Shown here: in pieces, positions 1,918 through 33,605 of the stretch
How positions within the stretch are numbered: the first letter of the stretch is position 1
How the letters are laid out: each line of letters opens with the position of its first letter
Translations under genes and position numbers: made by a program
From: Verrucomicrobiota bacterium
Lineage (GTDB): Bacteria > Verrucomicrobiota > Verrucomicrobiia > Limisphaerales > JADLHS01
DNA: 36,677 nucleotides
Reading direction: 5' to 3'
Assembly (NCBI GenBank): GCA_008933055.1
Contig: WBXK01000006.1
Location: 1-36,677 of the forward strand
The notes under the pieces: generated by a model
The model's database searches: none
The model's input: only the letters and a program-made list of their open reading frames with translations
Told to the model about the DNA's origin: nothing

Positions 1918-2921
1918 GATGGTTTTTGGAGAACCATGACGAGGTTATCCGCGAGATTCAACGCGCACAATCCGGTTTCCATTCCCCTCAAAACGGCATT
2001 GATCGGTTTGAGCACTGGGTTCTGTTTGTAGCGGGTTGTTCGCGTCAGGAGTTGTGCGCGTTCTTGATCGGACACTAATTTTCCCGATGACTTCCAGTCC
2101 TGCCAGATGACCAGTGGATTAAAATGGGTTGAGCCTGAATCAATAATCTGAAATCCGCTTCGGCGCGTCAAAAGTTGGTTCAAGGTTGCTGCGGTGAAGT
2201 AATTGACGTGTTGCGGGAGAATATAACGGTAATTCTTGCCGAGCAATCGTACAGCGAGCGACTCCATATTCGGGACAAGCACAAAGCAGCAGCCATGAGG
2301 GTTCAAAACCTCCCACGCCTTGTCGATAAATTGCCGGGGATTGTGCAGGTGTTCGATGACTGCCCAAAAAGTAATGGCATCGAACTTCCGTGCACCGAAA
2401 TCCTGTTCAAGAAAATTCTCGCGCAGAACAGTCACCCCGCGTGACTCCGCGTAGTCCAACGGACCACCGCTCACATCTGTGCCGAGGATTCTGTAATCAG
2501 CAGGCCAGCGTTTCTTGAGCTGAAATAGAAAGCCGCCCGATCCGCATCCGACATCCAACACCTCGCCGCGTGGGCAAAACTTTCTAAACAGGCGCAGCTC
2601 CCGCTCGAAACGGACGTTAGAGTAATCGCTCGCAAGTTTCGCAGGCGACAGATAGTAGTCTGCACCTTCCGTGTCGTAGAAGCTGCCGCTTGCCATGTCG
2701 ACCTGAATAGGGTCAACGTAGATCATGCCGCAACTAGTGCATCGAACGAGTTGCAACTCCACTTTGCGCCAGTGGGTTTGGCTCTTTGGCGAGCCGCACA
2801 CGGGACAATCGCGATGCACGGTCGCTTGATTGGGGTGAGATGTTTTTCGATTTATCAGCTTGCTGACTATGGAAACATCAGCTGTGGATTTGGACAATGT
2901 TAGAGTAGAACGTGATAACAA
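1914..2921 (-). CDS. Class I SAM-dependent methyltransferase with N-terminal CxxC (type 12-like); annotated start uncertain
   Basis: CPVCGSPKSQTHW...LVRCTSCGMIYVDP; EVLDVGCGSGGFLFQL; DAITFWAVIEHLHNP; LNPHGCCFVLVPN. Confidence 0.85.
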   Translation of the reverse strand: MLSRSTLTLSKSTADVSIVSKLINRKTSHPNQATVHRDCPVCGSPKSQTHWRKVELQLVRCTSCGMIYVDPIQVDMASGSFYDTEGADYYLSPAKLASDYSNVRFERELRLFRKFCPRGEVLDVGCGSGGFLFQLKKRWPADYRILGTDVSGGPLDYAESRGVTVLRENFLEQDFGARKFDAITFWAVIEHLHNPRQFIDKAWEVLNPHGCCFVLVPNMESLAVRLLGKNYRYILPQHVNYFTAATLNQLLTRRSGFQIIDSGSTHFNPLVIWQDWKSSGKLVSDQERAQLLTRTTRYKQNPVLKPINAVLRGMETGLCALNLADNLVMVLQKPS

Positions 2922-2947
2922 AAAAGGGCGTCCTTGAGGACGCCCTT
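2919..2947 (-). terminator. Rho-independent terminator downstream of tsf
   Basis: aaaaaaGGGCGTCcttgagGACGCCCtt; the U-tract lies on the minus-strand transcript. Confidence 0.85.
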
Positions 2948-2966
2948 CGTGCTTAGAGTCTTTTGC

Positions 2967-3812
2967 TTACGCGGACGCTTCACCGACTTGGAAGCGGACA
3001 AAGCTGCGGATGACGATCTCGTCACCGAGCTGTTTCCCGACTTCGGCGACGTGATCTTTCACACTGATCTCGGAATTGCGTTTCACGAAACCCTGATCCA
3101 CGAGGCAGTAAGTCTGGAAGAATTTGTCCAAAACGCCAGCAAGAATCTTCTCCATAGCCTGAGCAGGCTTGCCCTTGAGGCGGTCAGACTGCGCGGCGAT
3201 TTCGCGTTCCTTGGCGACGACTTCGGGGGAAACCTGATCACGAGAAACCGCGTGCGGATGGCCAGCAGCAATCTGCAAGGTGATGTCGCGGACGAGTTGT
3301 TTGAACTCATCGCGGTTTGTGGTTTCTGCTTTGCCTGAGCCGACTTCCACGAGCACTCCGACTTTTGCTCCGGTGTGGATGTAGGCAGCGACGAGGCCGT
3401 TGCCGCTGACTTCCAAACGGGCGTTGCGGGTGATTTTGATGTTCTCGCCGATCTTAGCAACGGCAGCTTGACGGTCGGCTTCGAGGTCAACAGCGGGATT
3501 AGCGGCGACCTTCTTGGCGATCTCATCGCAGAACGCCCGGAAGCCTTCGTTGCGGGCGACGAAGTCGGTTTCGCAATTGATTTCCACGAGAACGCCAAAT
3601 TTTCCGCCGGGCGTGATGTGCTGGGCGATGACGCCTTCCCGGGCATCGCGCAGGGACTTTTTGGCCGCCCCAGCTATGCCGGATTTGCGGAGATTGTCCA
3701 CAGCCTTGTCCATGTCACCGTTCGCTTCGACAAGCGCCTTCTTACATTCCATCATTCCGACGCCGGTCATCTCTCGGAGTTTGCCGACGTTGGCAGCAGT
3801 GATTTCAGCCAT
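2967..3812 (-). CDS. tsf: Elongation factor Ts
   Basis: N-terminal TGVGMMECKKALVEANGDMDKAVDNLRKSG; GVLVEINCETDFVARNEGF. Confidence 0.97.
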   Translation of the reverse strand: MAEITAANVGKLREMTGVGMMECKKALVEANGDMDKAVDNLRKSGIAGAAKKSLRDAREGVIAQHITPGGKFGVLVEINCETDFVARNEGFRAFCDEIAKKVAANPAVDLEADRQAAVAKIGENIKITRNARLEVSGNGLVAAYIHTGAKVGVLVEVGSGKAETTNRDEFKQLVRDITLQIAAGHPHAVSRDQVSPEVVAKEREIAAQSDRLKGKPAQAMEKILAGVLDKFFQTYCLVDQGFVKRNSEISVKDHVAEVGKQLGDEIVIRSFVRFQVGEASA

Positions 3813-3870
3813 AAAATTAGTTGAGTGTTACAGGTTGAGGTTTGATGGCCCTAGCCATTTAGAAAATCCC

Positions 3871-3914
3871 GGGAAACGGCGGCGGTGTTCTTCAGCTGCA
3901 CCGCCGCGTTTCCT
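3871..3914 (-). promoter_or_regulatory. Large inverted repeat in the rpsB-tsf intergenic region
   Basis: ggaaacggcggcggtg ... caccgccgcgtttcc, complementary with one bulge. Confidence 0.6.
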
Positions 3915-3922
3915 GGAAATTA

Positions 3923-4693
3923 TCATGCAGCCGGGGTAGCTTCAGCAGCAGTCGCAGTTTCCATGTTTTGGCTTTCTTCCGTTTGCTTCCGGCGACTGGA
4001 TTTGGACTCAAACTCGGCTTGCGCGCGGGTGATTACCTGACAGACAGTGGAAAGAATCATGCGCACGGAACGAATCGCATCGTCGTTAGCTGGAATCGGG
4101 TAATCCACGAGATCTGGGTCGGCGTTTGTGTCAGTGATGGCGACGACAGGGATGCCGAGCTTGCGGGCTTCGGCCACGGCGTTGTGTTCTCTCTTGACGT
4201 CTACGACGAACATGCAACCAGGGTTTTTGTCCAGCGTGCGGATTCCGTCAAAATACTTCACCAGACGTGCGGCTTCACGGCGGATGACAGCTTGTTCCTG
4301 CTTCACGTAATTGTTGATGCTGCCGTCTGCTTCCATCTTCTCGATTTCGCGCAATCGGGCGAGAGACTTTTTGACAGTGGCAAAATTGGTAAGCGTACCG
4401 CCTAGCCAACGCTCAATAACGAAATACTGATTGGATTCCTTAGCGGTTTCCTTCACGGCATGCTGAGCCTGCTTTTTTGTCCCTACAAACAGAACCTTCT
4501 GTCCTTTGGAGACCGTTTTGGCGAGGAATTCGCACGCGAGCTCTAGCTGAGCTAGCGACTTGCTCAGGTCTATGATGTGGATGCCGTTGCGCGCGTCATA
4601 GATGAACGGTTTCATCTTGGGATTCCATCGCTTGGTCTGGTGACCGAAGTGAACGCCTGCTTCCAATAATTCTTTTACGCCGATACTTAACAT
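3923..4693 (-). CDS. rpsB: 30S ribosomal protein S2
   Basis: KELLEAGVHFGHQTKRWNPKMKPFIYDARNGIHIIDL; RWLGGTLTNFATV; IPVVAITDTNADPDLVDYPIPANDDAIRSV. Confidence 0.98.
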   Translation of the reverse strand: MLSIGVKELLEAGVHFGHQTKRWNPKMKPFIYDARNGIHIIDLSKSLAQLELACEFLAKTVSKGQKVLFVGTKKQAQHAVKETAKESNQYFVIERWLGGTLTNFATVKKSLARLREIEKMEADGSINNYVKQEQAVIRREAARLVKYFDGIRTLDKNPGCMFVVDVKREHNAVAEARKLGIPVVAITDTNADPDLVDYPIPANDDAIRSVRMILSTVCQVITRAQAEFESKSSRRKQTEESQNMETATAAEATPAA

Positions 4694-4762
4694 GTTTCCT
4701 TTTGGTTAAAACCCTAATTCAGGGCATCCCGCGGAATTCGGGATTGTTTTCAATGTTGTTAT

Positions 4763-4800
4763 GGCTCGATTTCACCGCCTCCACACGGAGGCGAAGAGCC
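4763..4800 (-). promoter_or_regulatory. Structured 5' leader candidate upstream of rpsB
   Basis: Nested hairpin GGCTC..CGCCTCC-acac-GGAGGCG-aa-GAGCC between rpsB and the neighbouring gene. Confidence 0.45.
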
Positions 4801-4934
4801 GTTTCCCCAATGCCAGTTGCCCGTCCAAAGGGGCGGAGAGATTAGCAAAGAAGTGCACGCTGGCAATGGTTTATTTGGAGAATGTGTAACCGATCGCTAG
4901 TGATATTTGCTCCACGCTCGAAGTGATTCGCCGA

Positions 4935-6242
4935 TCACTTTATCACGCTTGCGACCAGTGGGAGGAGTTTTGGACGGTTGGCTGAAATTTTAAATGCGCT
5001 TGCGAGTCGTTCGCCAGCTAGGCGGGCTTGATTGTCCGAGTCCGCATGGATGCGGCAAAGTGTTTGGCCTGACTTGATTGCCTCTCCTGGCTTCGCGATT
5101 TGATCCAGCCCCACATCGAAATTCACCACAGACTCTTTGCTCAAACGACCACCGCCCAAATCACGGATGACTTCGCCTAGAATCCGCGCGTCGGAGCGAG
5201 TGACGTAGCCAGAACACCTCGTTTTTAATTCGAGGACGACCTTGGCGGTGTGATTGAGTGAGAGTTTTTGTTTCACCTCGGCCAAGTCTGCGCCTTGTGC
5301 CATGAGCATCTCATCCCATTTCGCGCTCGGCGCGCCTGAGTTGAGACAAGCTTCCGCTTGTTTTCGTGCGGCATTGAAAGACTTCGCTTTGTGCGTTTGC
5401 ACGAGCAAGTGCGCGGCGCAATCTACGACAAGCACGCGCAAATCTTCCGGGCCCATGCCGGCGAGGCACGCGACGCTTTCTTTCACCTCTAGCCAATTGC
5501 CCGAAGCGCGACCGACAGGTGTATTCATATCAGTTAGCATTGCGCGGGTGTTCACGCCGCATTGATTGCCAAGCGCAACCATTGTCTTCGCCAACTTGAT
5601 CGCCTCCGCGCGCGTTTGCATGAACGCAGCGCAACCGAACTTCACGTCGAGTATGAGAGCACCCAAACTTTCCGCGAGTTTTTTGGAGAGAATCGAAGCT
5701 GTGATGAGTTGAATGCTAGGCACCGTACCCGTCACATCGCGAAGCGCGTACATTTTTTTATCCGCCGGAACCATGTTGTCCGTCTGTCCGCAGATGACAC
5801 AACCGACCTTCTGCACGATTTCGGTGATGCGTTTGGCAGGTAGCAGCGTTTTGAAACCGGGAATGGAATCCAGTTTGTCTAATGTCCCGCCCGTGATGCC
5901 AAGTCCGCGACCAGAGATCATCGGCACGCGAAAGCCGAGACACGCGAGCAGCGGCGCGAGCGGCAGAGAAACCTTGTCCCCGACTCCACCAGTGGAGTGC
6001 TTGTCCACTATCGGGCGTTTGTCCTTAGGGAATTTCAATACGTCACCTGAATCCCGCATGGCGAGAGTGAGCGCAGTGGTTTCCGCTGTGTTCAATCCGC
6101 GAAAGAAAACGGCCATCAGGAACGACGCCAGCTGGTAGTCAGGAATCTTGTTGGTGACGACGCTAGCAACAATTTCGCGAAGCTGCGCGGTGCTGAGCGT
6201 GTGGCCGTCACGCTTGGATTCGATGAGGGAGAGAAAGTTCAT
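4935..6242 (-). CDS. deoA: Thymidine / pyrimidine-nucleoside phosphorylase
   Basis: DKHSTGGVGDKVSLPLAPLLACLG; MISGRGLGITGGTLDKLDSIPGF; LGNQCGVNTRAMLTDMNTPVG. Confidence 0.95.
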   Translation of the reverse strand: MNFLSLIESKRDGHTLSTAQLREIVASVVTNKIPDYQLASFLMAVFFRGLNTAETTALTLAMRDSGDVLKFPKDKRPIVDKHSTGGVGDKVSLPLAPLLACLGFRVPMISGRGLGITGGTLDKLDSIPGFKTLLPAKRITEIVQKVGCVICGQTDNMVPADKKMYALRDVTGTVPSIQLITASILSKKLAESLGALILDVKFGCAAFMQTRAEAIKLAKTMVALGNQCGVNTRAMLTDMNTPVGRASGNWLEVKESVACLAGMGPEDLRVLVVDCAAHLLVQTHKAKSFNAARKQAEACLNSGAPSAKWDEMLMAQGADLAEVKQKLSLNHTAKVVLELKTRCSGYVTRSDARILGEVIRDLGGGRLSKESVVNFDVGLDQIAKPGEAIKSGQTLCRIHADSDNQARLAGERLASAFKISANRPKLLPLVASVIK

Positions 6243-14530: not shown

Positions 14531-15974
14531 ATGCGCTCTCATACGCAATGGCTCCAAAAGGTTGTAAGGGTTTTCACTCTGATGACCGCACTCTTTTCCA
14601 TCTCGGCAACAACATCGTTTTCCCAAGCCTCGTTGTTTGATCCGACTTTCAATATAGGGTCAGGAGCAAACGGGACGGTTTATGGCATCGTTCCACAAGA
14701 CGATGGAAAGGTAATTGTCGGAGGTTCATTTACAGAGATATCGGGTCAGCCATGCACAAACCTTGCCCGACTTAATGCTGACGGAAGGTTGGACACCACA
14801 TTTCCTCAAGGGACGGATGGCGCAATCTATCGAATGCTCAAACAGCCGGATGGGAAGATTTTGGTCGGTGGAGCCTTTACTAACCTCCAAGGAGTCTTGC
14901 GACAACGTATCGGAAGGTTGCATACCAATGGTACCGTTGATATGAGCTTTGATGCAGGTGTCGCTGTTCCTGAAGGCGTGATGGTTTTAACCCTTGCCTG
15001 CCAGTCGGATGAAAAGGTGTTAGTTGGAACGGTTCCACCTTCGGGAGCATTTTCTTTTCTCAAGCGGCTGCTTCCCACAGGTGAACTGGACAATTCTTTC
15101 ATCCAAACAAATGTTTTTTTGGGATCGTATATTTTGGCAATTTGCATACGCACGAATGGTTCAATCTTGGTAGGTGGCGGATTTAATCAGGTCAACGGAT
15201 TTTCCGCTTCTGCGCTGGCACTAGTAGCTACAAATGGGGTGCTCGATACGGAGTTCGCATCGCCGATACAGACGATTTTTGCCTACGGCTCTCCCTACGG
15301 CTCGGGCATCTATGCTATGGCCGCACTGTCTGACAACAGTATTTTGATGGGTGGTGGATTTTTTCGCGATGGTTTTTTAACGAATAAATTGGTGCTTGCA
15401 AAGCTGACCAGCAGTTTAGCTTGGGACTCCAGTTTTACGATAGATACCTTTAACTCGGAACCTTTAACTCCTGGCTATGTTATGGCGATCTCATTGCAAA
15501 CCGATGGCAAAATGATCCTCGGCGGTAATTTTCAAAGAGTCGGAGGCTAGGAGGCAATCTTTGGTGCGACTCGATTCGGATGGGCATGTTGATCCATGCT
15601 TTGATCCGGGAATTGGTTTATCTCCTTTTCACTTCGCCGAGTTTTACAGGGGAATTTCTTCAATTGCACTCCAATCCGACGGCAAAATTCTGGCAGCAGG
15701 GAATTTTGGCAACCTGATGTCTGGAGCAAATTGTATCACCAGACTTTTGCCGCAATCTGAGTGCGGCGCAATACGCGTACATCTCCGCAAGGACGGATTT
15801 GGCGGTTACCTTGTGGCTGGCACTTGTAATCCCGGAGGAACAAATCACCTCCAATGGTCCACAAACCTAGTGGACTGGGAAACCGCCACCAGCACTACGT
15901 CGCCCTACGTTGCTACGTCGAACAGTTTCTGGTTTAAACCTGAACTGTTCTTCCGGGTCAAACAGGAATATTGA
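14531..15974 (+). pseudogene. Secreted delta-60 repeat protein, apparently broken by a single-nt frameshift near 15543-15550
   Basis: Repeats such as DDGKVIVGGSFTEISGQPCTNLARLNADGRLDTTF; frame 1 ends ...GGNFQRVGG* and the next frame continues ARRQSLVRLDSDGHVDPCFDPG... to 15974. Confidence 0.75.
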
Positions 15975-32009: not shown

Positions 32010-32201
32010 GCAGGATCAATTTAGCAGGGGGAATACCAACAAGGGGAAGCATTCTGACTGCTGGAGGGCGTTATGGATGTCGCAGACCCATCGCTGCCCG
32101 GTATCGGGACTGTTCAAGTCATGTGGTCGCGGTCTTCCCAAGCCTGTTTCAACTCCGAAATCAATACTTGGAACTGAGCGCGACGGACTTTAGTTTAAGG
32201 C

Positions 32202-32963
32202 GTGTTTCGTCCCTGCATTGATCTTCGAGACGGCAAGGTTGTTCAGATAGTCGGTGGCACGCTGAGTGACAACCCGGCGGATGTGCGTACTAACTACGTC
32301 TCCGAACGCCCTGCGTCATGGTTCGCTGACCTTTATAAACGCGACCATCTCACCGGCGGCCACATCATTCTATTGGGTGCTGGCAATGAAACGTCTGCGC
32401 GTGAAGCTTTGGCGGCGTATCCGGGCGGAATGCAGATTGGCGGCGGGGTGAATGCGTCCAATGCCCGCAGCTGGCTGGAAGCTGGGGCGTCCCACGTCAT
32501 CGTCACGAGCTGGGTATTTCGTGAGGGGCGCGTGGATGAGCCACGGCTGGCAGAATTGGTCAAGCTGGTCGGCCGCGAGCGGCTTGTGCTGGACTTGAGC
32601 TGCCGGAAGCGCGATGGAAATTATTACGTGGTCACAGATCGTTGGCAGAAGTTCACCGATGTGACGCTGTCTGCGGCGACGTTTAAAAAGTTTTCAAACT
32701 TGTGCGCGGAGTTTTTGATCCATGCAGTGGATGTCGAAGGGCTGTGTCGCGGCATTGATGGCGAGCTTGTGGAGAAACTGGCCGCTTGGTCTTCCATTCC
32801 CGCGACCTATGCTGGGGGCGCGAATTCTCTCACCGATCTTGAAACGGTTCGGCGATTGAGTCAGGGCAGGGTAGGGCTGACGATCGGCTCCGCGCTGGAC
32901 ATCTTCGGCGGCGAAGGCGTGCGCTACGAGGACGCGGTCAATTTCAATCGTAGCCACTGTTGA
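32202..32963 (+). CDS. hisA: Phosphoribosylformimino-AICAR isomerase, eukaryotic HIS6-like type
   Basis: FRPCIDLRDGKVVQIVGGTL; HLTGGHIILLG; YPGGMQIGGGVNASNARSWLEAGASHVIVTSWVF; RLVLDLSCRKRDGNYYVVTDRWQKF. Confidence 0.9.
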   Translation: MFRPCIDLRDGKVVQIVGGTLSDNPADVRTNYVSERPASWFADLYKRDHLTGGHIILLGAGNETSAREALAAYPGGMQIGGGVNASNARSWLEAGASHVIVTSWVFREGRVDEPRLAELVKLVGRERLVLDLSCRKRDGNYYVVTDRWQKFTDVTLSAATFKKFSNLCAEFLIHAVDVEGLCRGIDGELVEKLAAWSSIPATYAGGANSLTDLETVRRLSQGRVGLTIGSALDIFGGEGVRYEDAVNFNRSHC

Positions 32964-33034
32964 GGCGCGGCAGACCTGGAAAATGGTTTTGACTTGGATG
33001 GCGAGTAGTCGTTAAGGTTTAATAGGTTTTGGTT

Positions 33035-33110
33035 GGGGTCGTAGCTCAGTTGGTAGAGCACCACAATGGCATTGTGGGGGTCATCGGTTCGAACCCGTTC
33101 GGCTCCACCA
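33035..33110 (+). tRNA. tRNA-Ala (anticodon GGC), 3' CCA encoded
   Basis: GGGGTCG acceptor pairs CGGCTCC; GCTC..GAGC D-arm; CCACA-ATGGCAT-TGTGG anticodon arm; GGTTCGAACC T-loop; ACCA end. Confidence 0.95.
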
Positions 33111-33121
33111 TCCAAAACAAG

Positions 33122-33152
33122 AAGCCTGCAACTCTGTTTGCAGGCTTTTTTT
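33122..33152 (+). terminator. Terminator downstream of tRNA-Ala
   Basis: AAGCCTGCAActctgtTTGCAGGCTTttttt. Confidence 0.85.
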
Positions 33153-33605
33153 ATTGGCTCAAGCCTCTCGTTTCCGGCCTGACGGGTTGGACGATTCCGC
33201 GATTTGAGGATGCACCTTGTTTTTACAAATTTTATGAATAGGAGAGGGATAAAGAGGATTCTCAACTCAACCCCGTTCTGAAAACGCAACTGGCCCGCCT
33301 GCTGGTTGTCTGGACGTGGTGATTGGCTATGACGACCGTGGCCCCGGTTGCGGTTACGCCGCACGTAGTTCAGAAAATATCCCAGTGCTGTGGCTGTGGT
33401 TAGCTAGCCAGAAATCCAAAATGCAATTCGGAATCCCTTGTCGGAAACGCGTTTGTTAAAACTCGGCGTGACTCTGGTTAACCGTAATAATACAGAATAC
33501 AGCCAGTGGCATTTCCTGATCAATACCGGGAAAAACTTCCACCAAATAACTTGCTTCATCTGCCAGTGACGGCATTTTGAGGTTCGTTTTACAGGCATTA
33601 AAAAC

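Follow-up and report, generated by a model that had tools for sequence, protein, structure and literature searches.

HisA, the ProFAR (BBM-II) isomerase of histidine synthesis, is recognised by more than one curated profile. Canonical HisA, such as the E. coli enzyme, belongs to TIGR00007 (whole-protein cut-off of 228.95 bits). The subfamily TIGR02129 (hisA_euk, cut-off of 229.3 bits) takes its name from eukaryotes; this type was first described in yeast and plants. Bifunctional HisA/TrpF enzymes also exist, and their profile (TIGR01919, PriA) has a cut-off of 306 bits. The solved structures of the eukaryotic type include yeast His6 (2agk) and Medicago truncatula HISN3 (9fcf and 9fcg), the two Medicago entries being engineered D57N mutants. 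The 2006 paper on the structure of yeast His6 reportedly proposed Asp9 and Asp134 as the acid–base pair. In the literature searched, which included few subscription journals, we found no report of a eukaryotic-type HisA in bacteria (Fibrobacter included) and no activity measurement on a bacterial member.

A gene of the eukaryotic type in a bacterial contig

The window (the whole stretch of DNA analysed here, 36,677 nucleotides from a Verrucomicrobiota bacterium) contains a hisA gene whose ORF, on inspection, encodes 253 amino acids, with a GTG start and a TGA stop (Table 1). An in-frame TAA at 32196-32198, two codons 5' of the GTG, makes the latter the sole possible start, and the N-terminus agrees in the alignment with the "MFRPCIDL" start of the relatives. 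All the motifs quoted in an earlier, sequence-only reading of this DNA are present in the ORF, and the gene stands alone as that reading stated, with no further his gene within the window. The GC content of hisA is 58.0% and its GC3 64.6%, compared to GC3 values of 0.59–0.73 for the neighbouring genes. The composition therefore gives no sign of a recent foreign origin, and a recent transfer judged by this measure is ruled out.

Table 1. Position of hisA and of its predicted functional residues in the window
Feature	Position	Strand	Basis or equivalent
Eukaryotic-type hisA (TIGR02129), ProFAR/BBM-II isomerase	32202..32963	+	profile score, PDB matches, model
D7 codon, predicted acid–base catalyst, strand 1	32220..32222	+	yeast Asp9, Medicago Asp57
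G80-G81-G82, phosphate-binding motif, strand 3	32439..32447	+	invariant in relatives, common to canonical HisA
D131 codon, second predicted acid–base catalyst, strand 5	32592..32594	+	yeast Asp134
G205-G206, second phosphate-binding motif, strand 7	32814..32819	+	invariant in relatives, common to canonical HisA

A tRNA-Ala (GGC) gene lies just 3' of hisA, at 33035-33110 (+). An antisense ORF which spans it, 32924-33364 (-) (GGAERVRTDDPHNAIVVLYQLSYDP), is very likely spurious since it is the reverse strand of this tRNA gene. Elsewhere in the window, a gene for a DUF5122 beta-propeller protein (14531-15974, +) is apparently split into ORFs 14531-15550 and 15561-15974, possibly by a frameshift or a sequencing error.

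The window protein matches TIGR02129 over residues 2–250 with a score of 372.1 bits (E 1.5e-111), whereas it reaches only 75.1 bits with TIGR00007 and 31.6 bits with TIGR01919, both under their cut-offs. The assignment to the eukaryotic (HIS6/plant) type, proposed in the sequence-only reading, is thus borne out, the eukaryotic-type profile being far ahead of that of bacterial HisA. The solved structures matched by sequence follow the same order: Medicago HISN3 (9fcf) with 282 bits and yeast His6 (2agk) with 246 bits, compared to 41 bits for the best canonical HisA (4gj1). The AlphaFold2 model (pLDDT 91.2, pTM 0.89) is a (β/α)8 barrel, and comparison with the folds of the PDB places it nearest to His6 and HISN3: the top three matches are 9fcg (TM 0.95), 9fcf (0.94) and 2agk (0.86), and the remaining listed matches are at about 0.76 or below.

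The window protein and yeast His6 are 42% identical over the structural alignment, and both match TIGR02129 over their full length. His6 differs by a very long branch, by small insertions and by a tryptophan in place of G95 of the bacterial set; the window protein, for its part, comes from a bacterial host and is known here by its sequence and its model. The plant enzyme is closer (54% identity over the structural alignment, rmsd of 1.6 Å), but it has insertions near residues 20 and 60 (numbering of the window protein), and the plant and window genes are on separate branches of the tree. With canonical HisA, the window protein has in common the barrel, the predicted reaction, D7, the GGG and GG motifs and W148. 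Unlike canonical HisA, it carries its second aspartate of strand 5 two residues earlier, has a longer strand 5–6 region and an extra D233, and, as in the rest of the subfamily, has a glutamate (E179) in place of the aspartate of the RDG motif.

The conservation of the active site was examined in an alignment of 117 bacterial members, 2 eukaryotic and 17 canonical sequences, and in a separate set of 25 sequences. D7, the strand-1 aspartate which is also present in canonical HisA, is invariant in the 25 aligned relatives and conserved in more than 95% of the 117. It aligns with D57 of HISN3; 9fcf shows an asparagine at this position because the crystallised protein is the D57N mutant. D131 is also invariant in the 25 relatives. 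It lies two residues ahead of the canonical aspartate, whose position is occupied by S133: canonical HisA has G or A at the position of D131 and D at that of S133. The counterpart of D131 in 2agk is chain position 133; as the chain count runs one lower than the usual numbering, this residue corresponds to yeast Asp134. Both aspartates of His6 are kept in the window protein, and the roles proposed for Asp9 and Asp134 are predicted for their counterparts D7 and D131.

By analogy with yeast His6 and Medicago HISN3, the protein is predicted to be active as an isomerase. The barrel would hold both phosphates of ProFAR via G80–G82 and G205–G206, D131 would protonate the aminoaldose ring and open it, and D7 would catalyse both the enolisation and the proton transfer of the Amadori rearrangement. 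The product, PRFAR, would then be used by HisH-HisF.

Mutual exclusion with canonical HisA in Verrucomicrobiota

The genome that contains the window is a draft of 2.51 Mb in 199 contigs, 78% complete, which was examined by targeted searches. Two of its genes exceed the PF00977 cut-off, the window hisA and a hisF which adjoins purC (contig C132); hisB is found on another contig (C183). The sequence-only reading had proposed a search for an additional hisA of the canonical type: none of the genes in this 78%-complete genome exceeds the TIGR00007 cut-off, and such a gene is likely to be absent. Since hisF and hisB are present and no canonical hisA is found, the window gene most likely encodes the enzyme of the fourth step of histidine synthesis.

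The distribution of the two types was determined in 388 Verrucomicrobiota genomes, most of which are more than 90% complete, by matching the TIGR02129 and TIGR00007 tables by eye, row against row. The eukaryotic type is over the cut-off in 161 genomes (41%) and the canonical type in 195; none contains both, where about 80 would be expected by chance. A Fisher test was also applied to this exclusion, although its p-value is not to be taken literally because the genomes are related. In genomes with the eukaryotic type, the best TIGR00007 matches have E-values of 1.3e-45 or weaker (the cut-off corresponds to about 1e-68), and these matches look like HisF. A further 13 genomes with the eukaryotic type were checked, and again none has canonical HisA over the cut-off.

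A sequence scan of GTDB genomes returned at least 572 relatives of the window protein. The best 80 of these come from Verrucomicrobia (mostly subdivision 3/Limisphaerales), Lentisphaerae, Desulfobulbaceae and their kin, Paenibacillus, Spirochaetales and Nitrospirae, and the type occurs in 10 of 148 Desulfobacterota genomes. In this analysis, kinship with the nearest relatives is also what identifies the phylum as Verrucomicrobiota. The supposedly narrow occurrence of this subfamily among bacteria, which made the gene appear unusual in the sequence-only reading, therefore does not hold: the type is general in this phylum and present in several others. The label "eukaryotic-type HisA" is misleading for an enzyme that some 40% of the members of one bacterial phylum possess and that occurs sporadically in several others, where it replaces canonical HisA. 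Pathway predictors which know canonical HisA alone would miscall many such bacteria as histidine auxotrophs.

Four near-complete genomes (G113, G005, G069 and G105) have neither type over the cut-off, and are probably those of histidine auxotrophs. Another genome has two hisA genes of the eukaryotic type which score equally and lie about 1.2 kb apart (G157:C42:48040-48789 and 49977-50726), as a result of either tandem duplication or faulty assembly.

The function is seldom supported by the neighbouring genes: of the roughly 115 loci of the eukaryotic type that were inspected, L013 is the only one with the gene in a his operon. There, hisD (2192-3508), hisB (3505-4110) and hisH (4111-4998) are followed, after a gap of 2 bases, by the eukaryotic-type hisA (5001-5774), which occupies the slot of canonical hisA in L121, L123, L124 and L126. 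In Paenibacillus J2TS4, hisZ-G-D-B-H is separated from hisF-I by a gap of 388 bp, the eukaryotic-type hisA is elsewhere and there is no canonical hisA; a decayed hisA was sought in the hisH–hisF gap and no remnant was found. The lack of a hisA beside hisH was considered as a sign of displacement and rejected, since genomes of genus g18 which have canonical HisA also lack it at this place.

Two alternative histidine systems coexist within one genus (g4, family f4; L178 and L179 as opposed to L172 and L180). G051 and G185 have canonical HisA in a compact and complete hisGDC(NB)HAFI operon with a fused hisNB, and G287 and G302 have the corresponding part of it; in G232 and G221, hisB and hisH form a pair and the eukaryotic-type HisA is encoded elsewhere. 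It looks as if the whole operon had arrived in some species. G113, one of the near-complete genomes mentioned above, belongs to this genus and also lacks hisB, as expected if the eukaryotic-type gene serves histidine synthesis only.

The window gene is thus almost certainly the cell's ordinary ProFAR isomerase (EC 5.3.1.16), catalysing step 4 of histidine synthesis as a member of the TIGR02129 subfamily. In a rival reading, the protein acts differently or more broadly, as a HisA/TrpF isomerase of the PriA kind or as a regulator, and a canonical hisA is hidden in the sequence that the 78%-complete draft lacks. Such a gene could exist there, and there is a weak match to TIGR01919; however, this match is far under the cut-off, the mutual exclusion with canonical HisA is strict throughout the Verrucomicrobiota sample, a 97% complete genome of the same order (G296) likewise has this type only, and the fold and active site fit dedicated ProFAR isomerases, which makes this role very unlikely. 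The fragmentation of the draft might also suggest that a foreign contig was binned into the genome, but the 36.7-kb contig carries the core genes tsf, rpsB, pheT and fabF, with similar composition, the closest relatives of the protein come from the same phylum, and G296 has the gene too; the probability of such an artefact is negligible. For this genome, hisA is an ordinary housekeeping gene whose product was correctly recognised, and what is still of interest is its evolution, which has more to do with eukaryotes than with this bacterium.

Relation to the yeast and plant enzymes

In a tree of 96 rows, the eukaryotic-type sequences split from canonical HisA with full support. The phylogeny, which the sequence-only reading had proposed as a check, does not bring the window gene close to eukaryotes: it is nested among verrucomicrobial genes, and the two eukaryotic sequences lie elsewhere in the bacterial tree. 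Here, "eukaryotic" designates the subfamily and not where the gene came from. The transfer of a eukaryotic gene to this bacterium or its recent ancestors is suggested by that name and by the nearest solved structures, which are from plant and yeast. Yet the nearest relatives are verrucomicrobial (75% identity), a large bacterial clade encloses the window gene, with neither eukaryotic sequence close to it, the type is widespread among the sampled members of the phylum and the base composition is like that of the neighbours, so that this transfer is most improbable. The subfamily is most likely a long-standing bacterial lineage and a one-for-one substitute for canonical HisA; in Verrucomicrobiota, its gene usually stands alone and has been passed down within the phylum, not recently taken up from a eukaryote.

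Yeast His6 falls within a clade of Verrucomicrobiota that belong to the same class but to other families (SH-aLRT 99, and 100/100 with a second taxon set). Medicago HISN3 belongs to a set of three rows, in which its nearest rows are Desulfobacteraceae and Opitutaceae sequences (97/98). Trees constrained to group yeast with Medicago are rejected for both of the taxon sets used (AU p of 0.0065 and 0.0059). Separate bacterial sources of His6 and HISN3 are a lead, not a result, since these two sequences make up the whole eukaryotic sampling and yeast sits on a very long branch (1.3–2.2).

The separate placement agrees with published reports. According to one of them, plant HISN2 and fungal HIS4 originated in deltaproteobacteria or neighbouring orders (PMC8102479). 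According to another, two deltaproteobacteria have a fused HisHF that groups with those of plants, although a transfer in the opposite direction, from plants to bacteria, was proposed in that case (PMC1963479). It may be, tentatively, that "eukaryotic" HisA is a bacterial subfamily which eukaryotes acquired at least twice, the donor having been Verrucomicrobiota-like for fungi and Desulfobacterota-like for plants; we consider this possible rather than probable. If the separation of yeast and plants holds with more eukaryotes, an essential eukaryotic pathway would have been built from different bacterial donors. Plants may even owe several histidine enzymes to such bacteria, since some Desulfobacterota have the fused HisHF known from eukaryotes.

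These HisHF proteins, of 530-584 aa, are encoded at L185:61-1815 (+), L186:538-2211 (+), L190:1131-2723 (-) and similar loci. They resemble eukaryotic HIS7, with 616 bits for the yeast structure 1jvn compared to 187 bits for the next match. The fusion is present in 7 of the 10 Desulfobacterota genomes with eukaryotic-type HisA, compared to 16 of the 138 without it (Fisher p 8e-5, without correction for relatedness).
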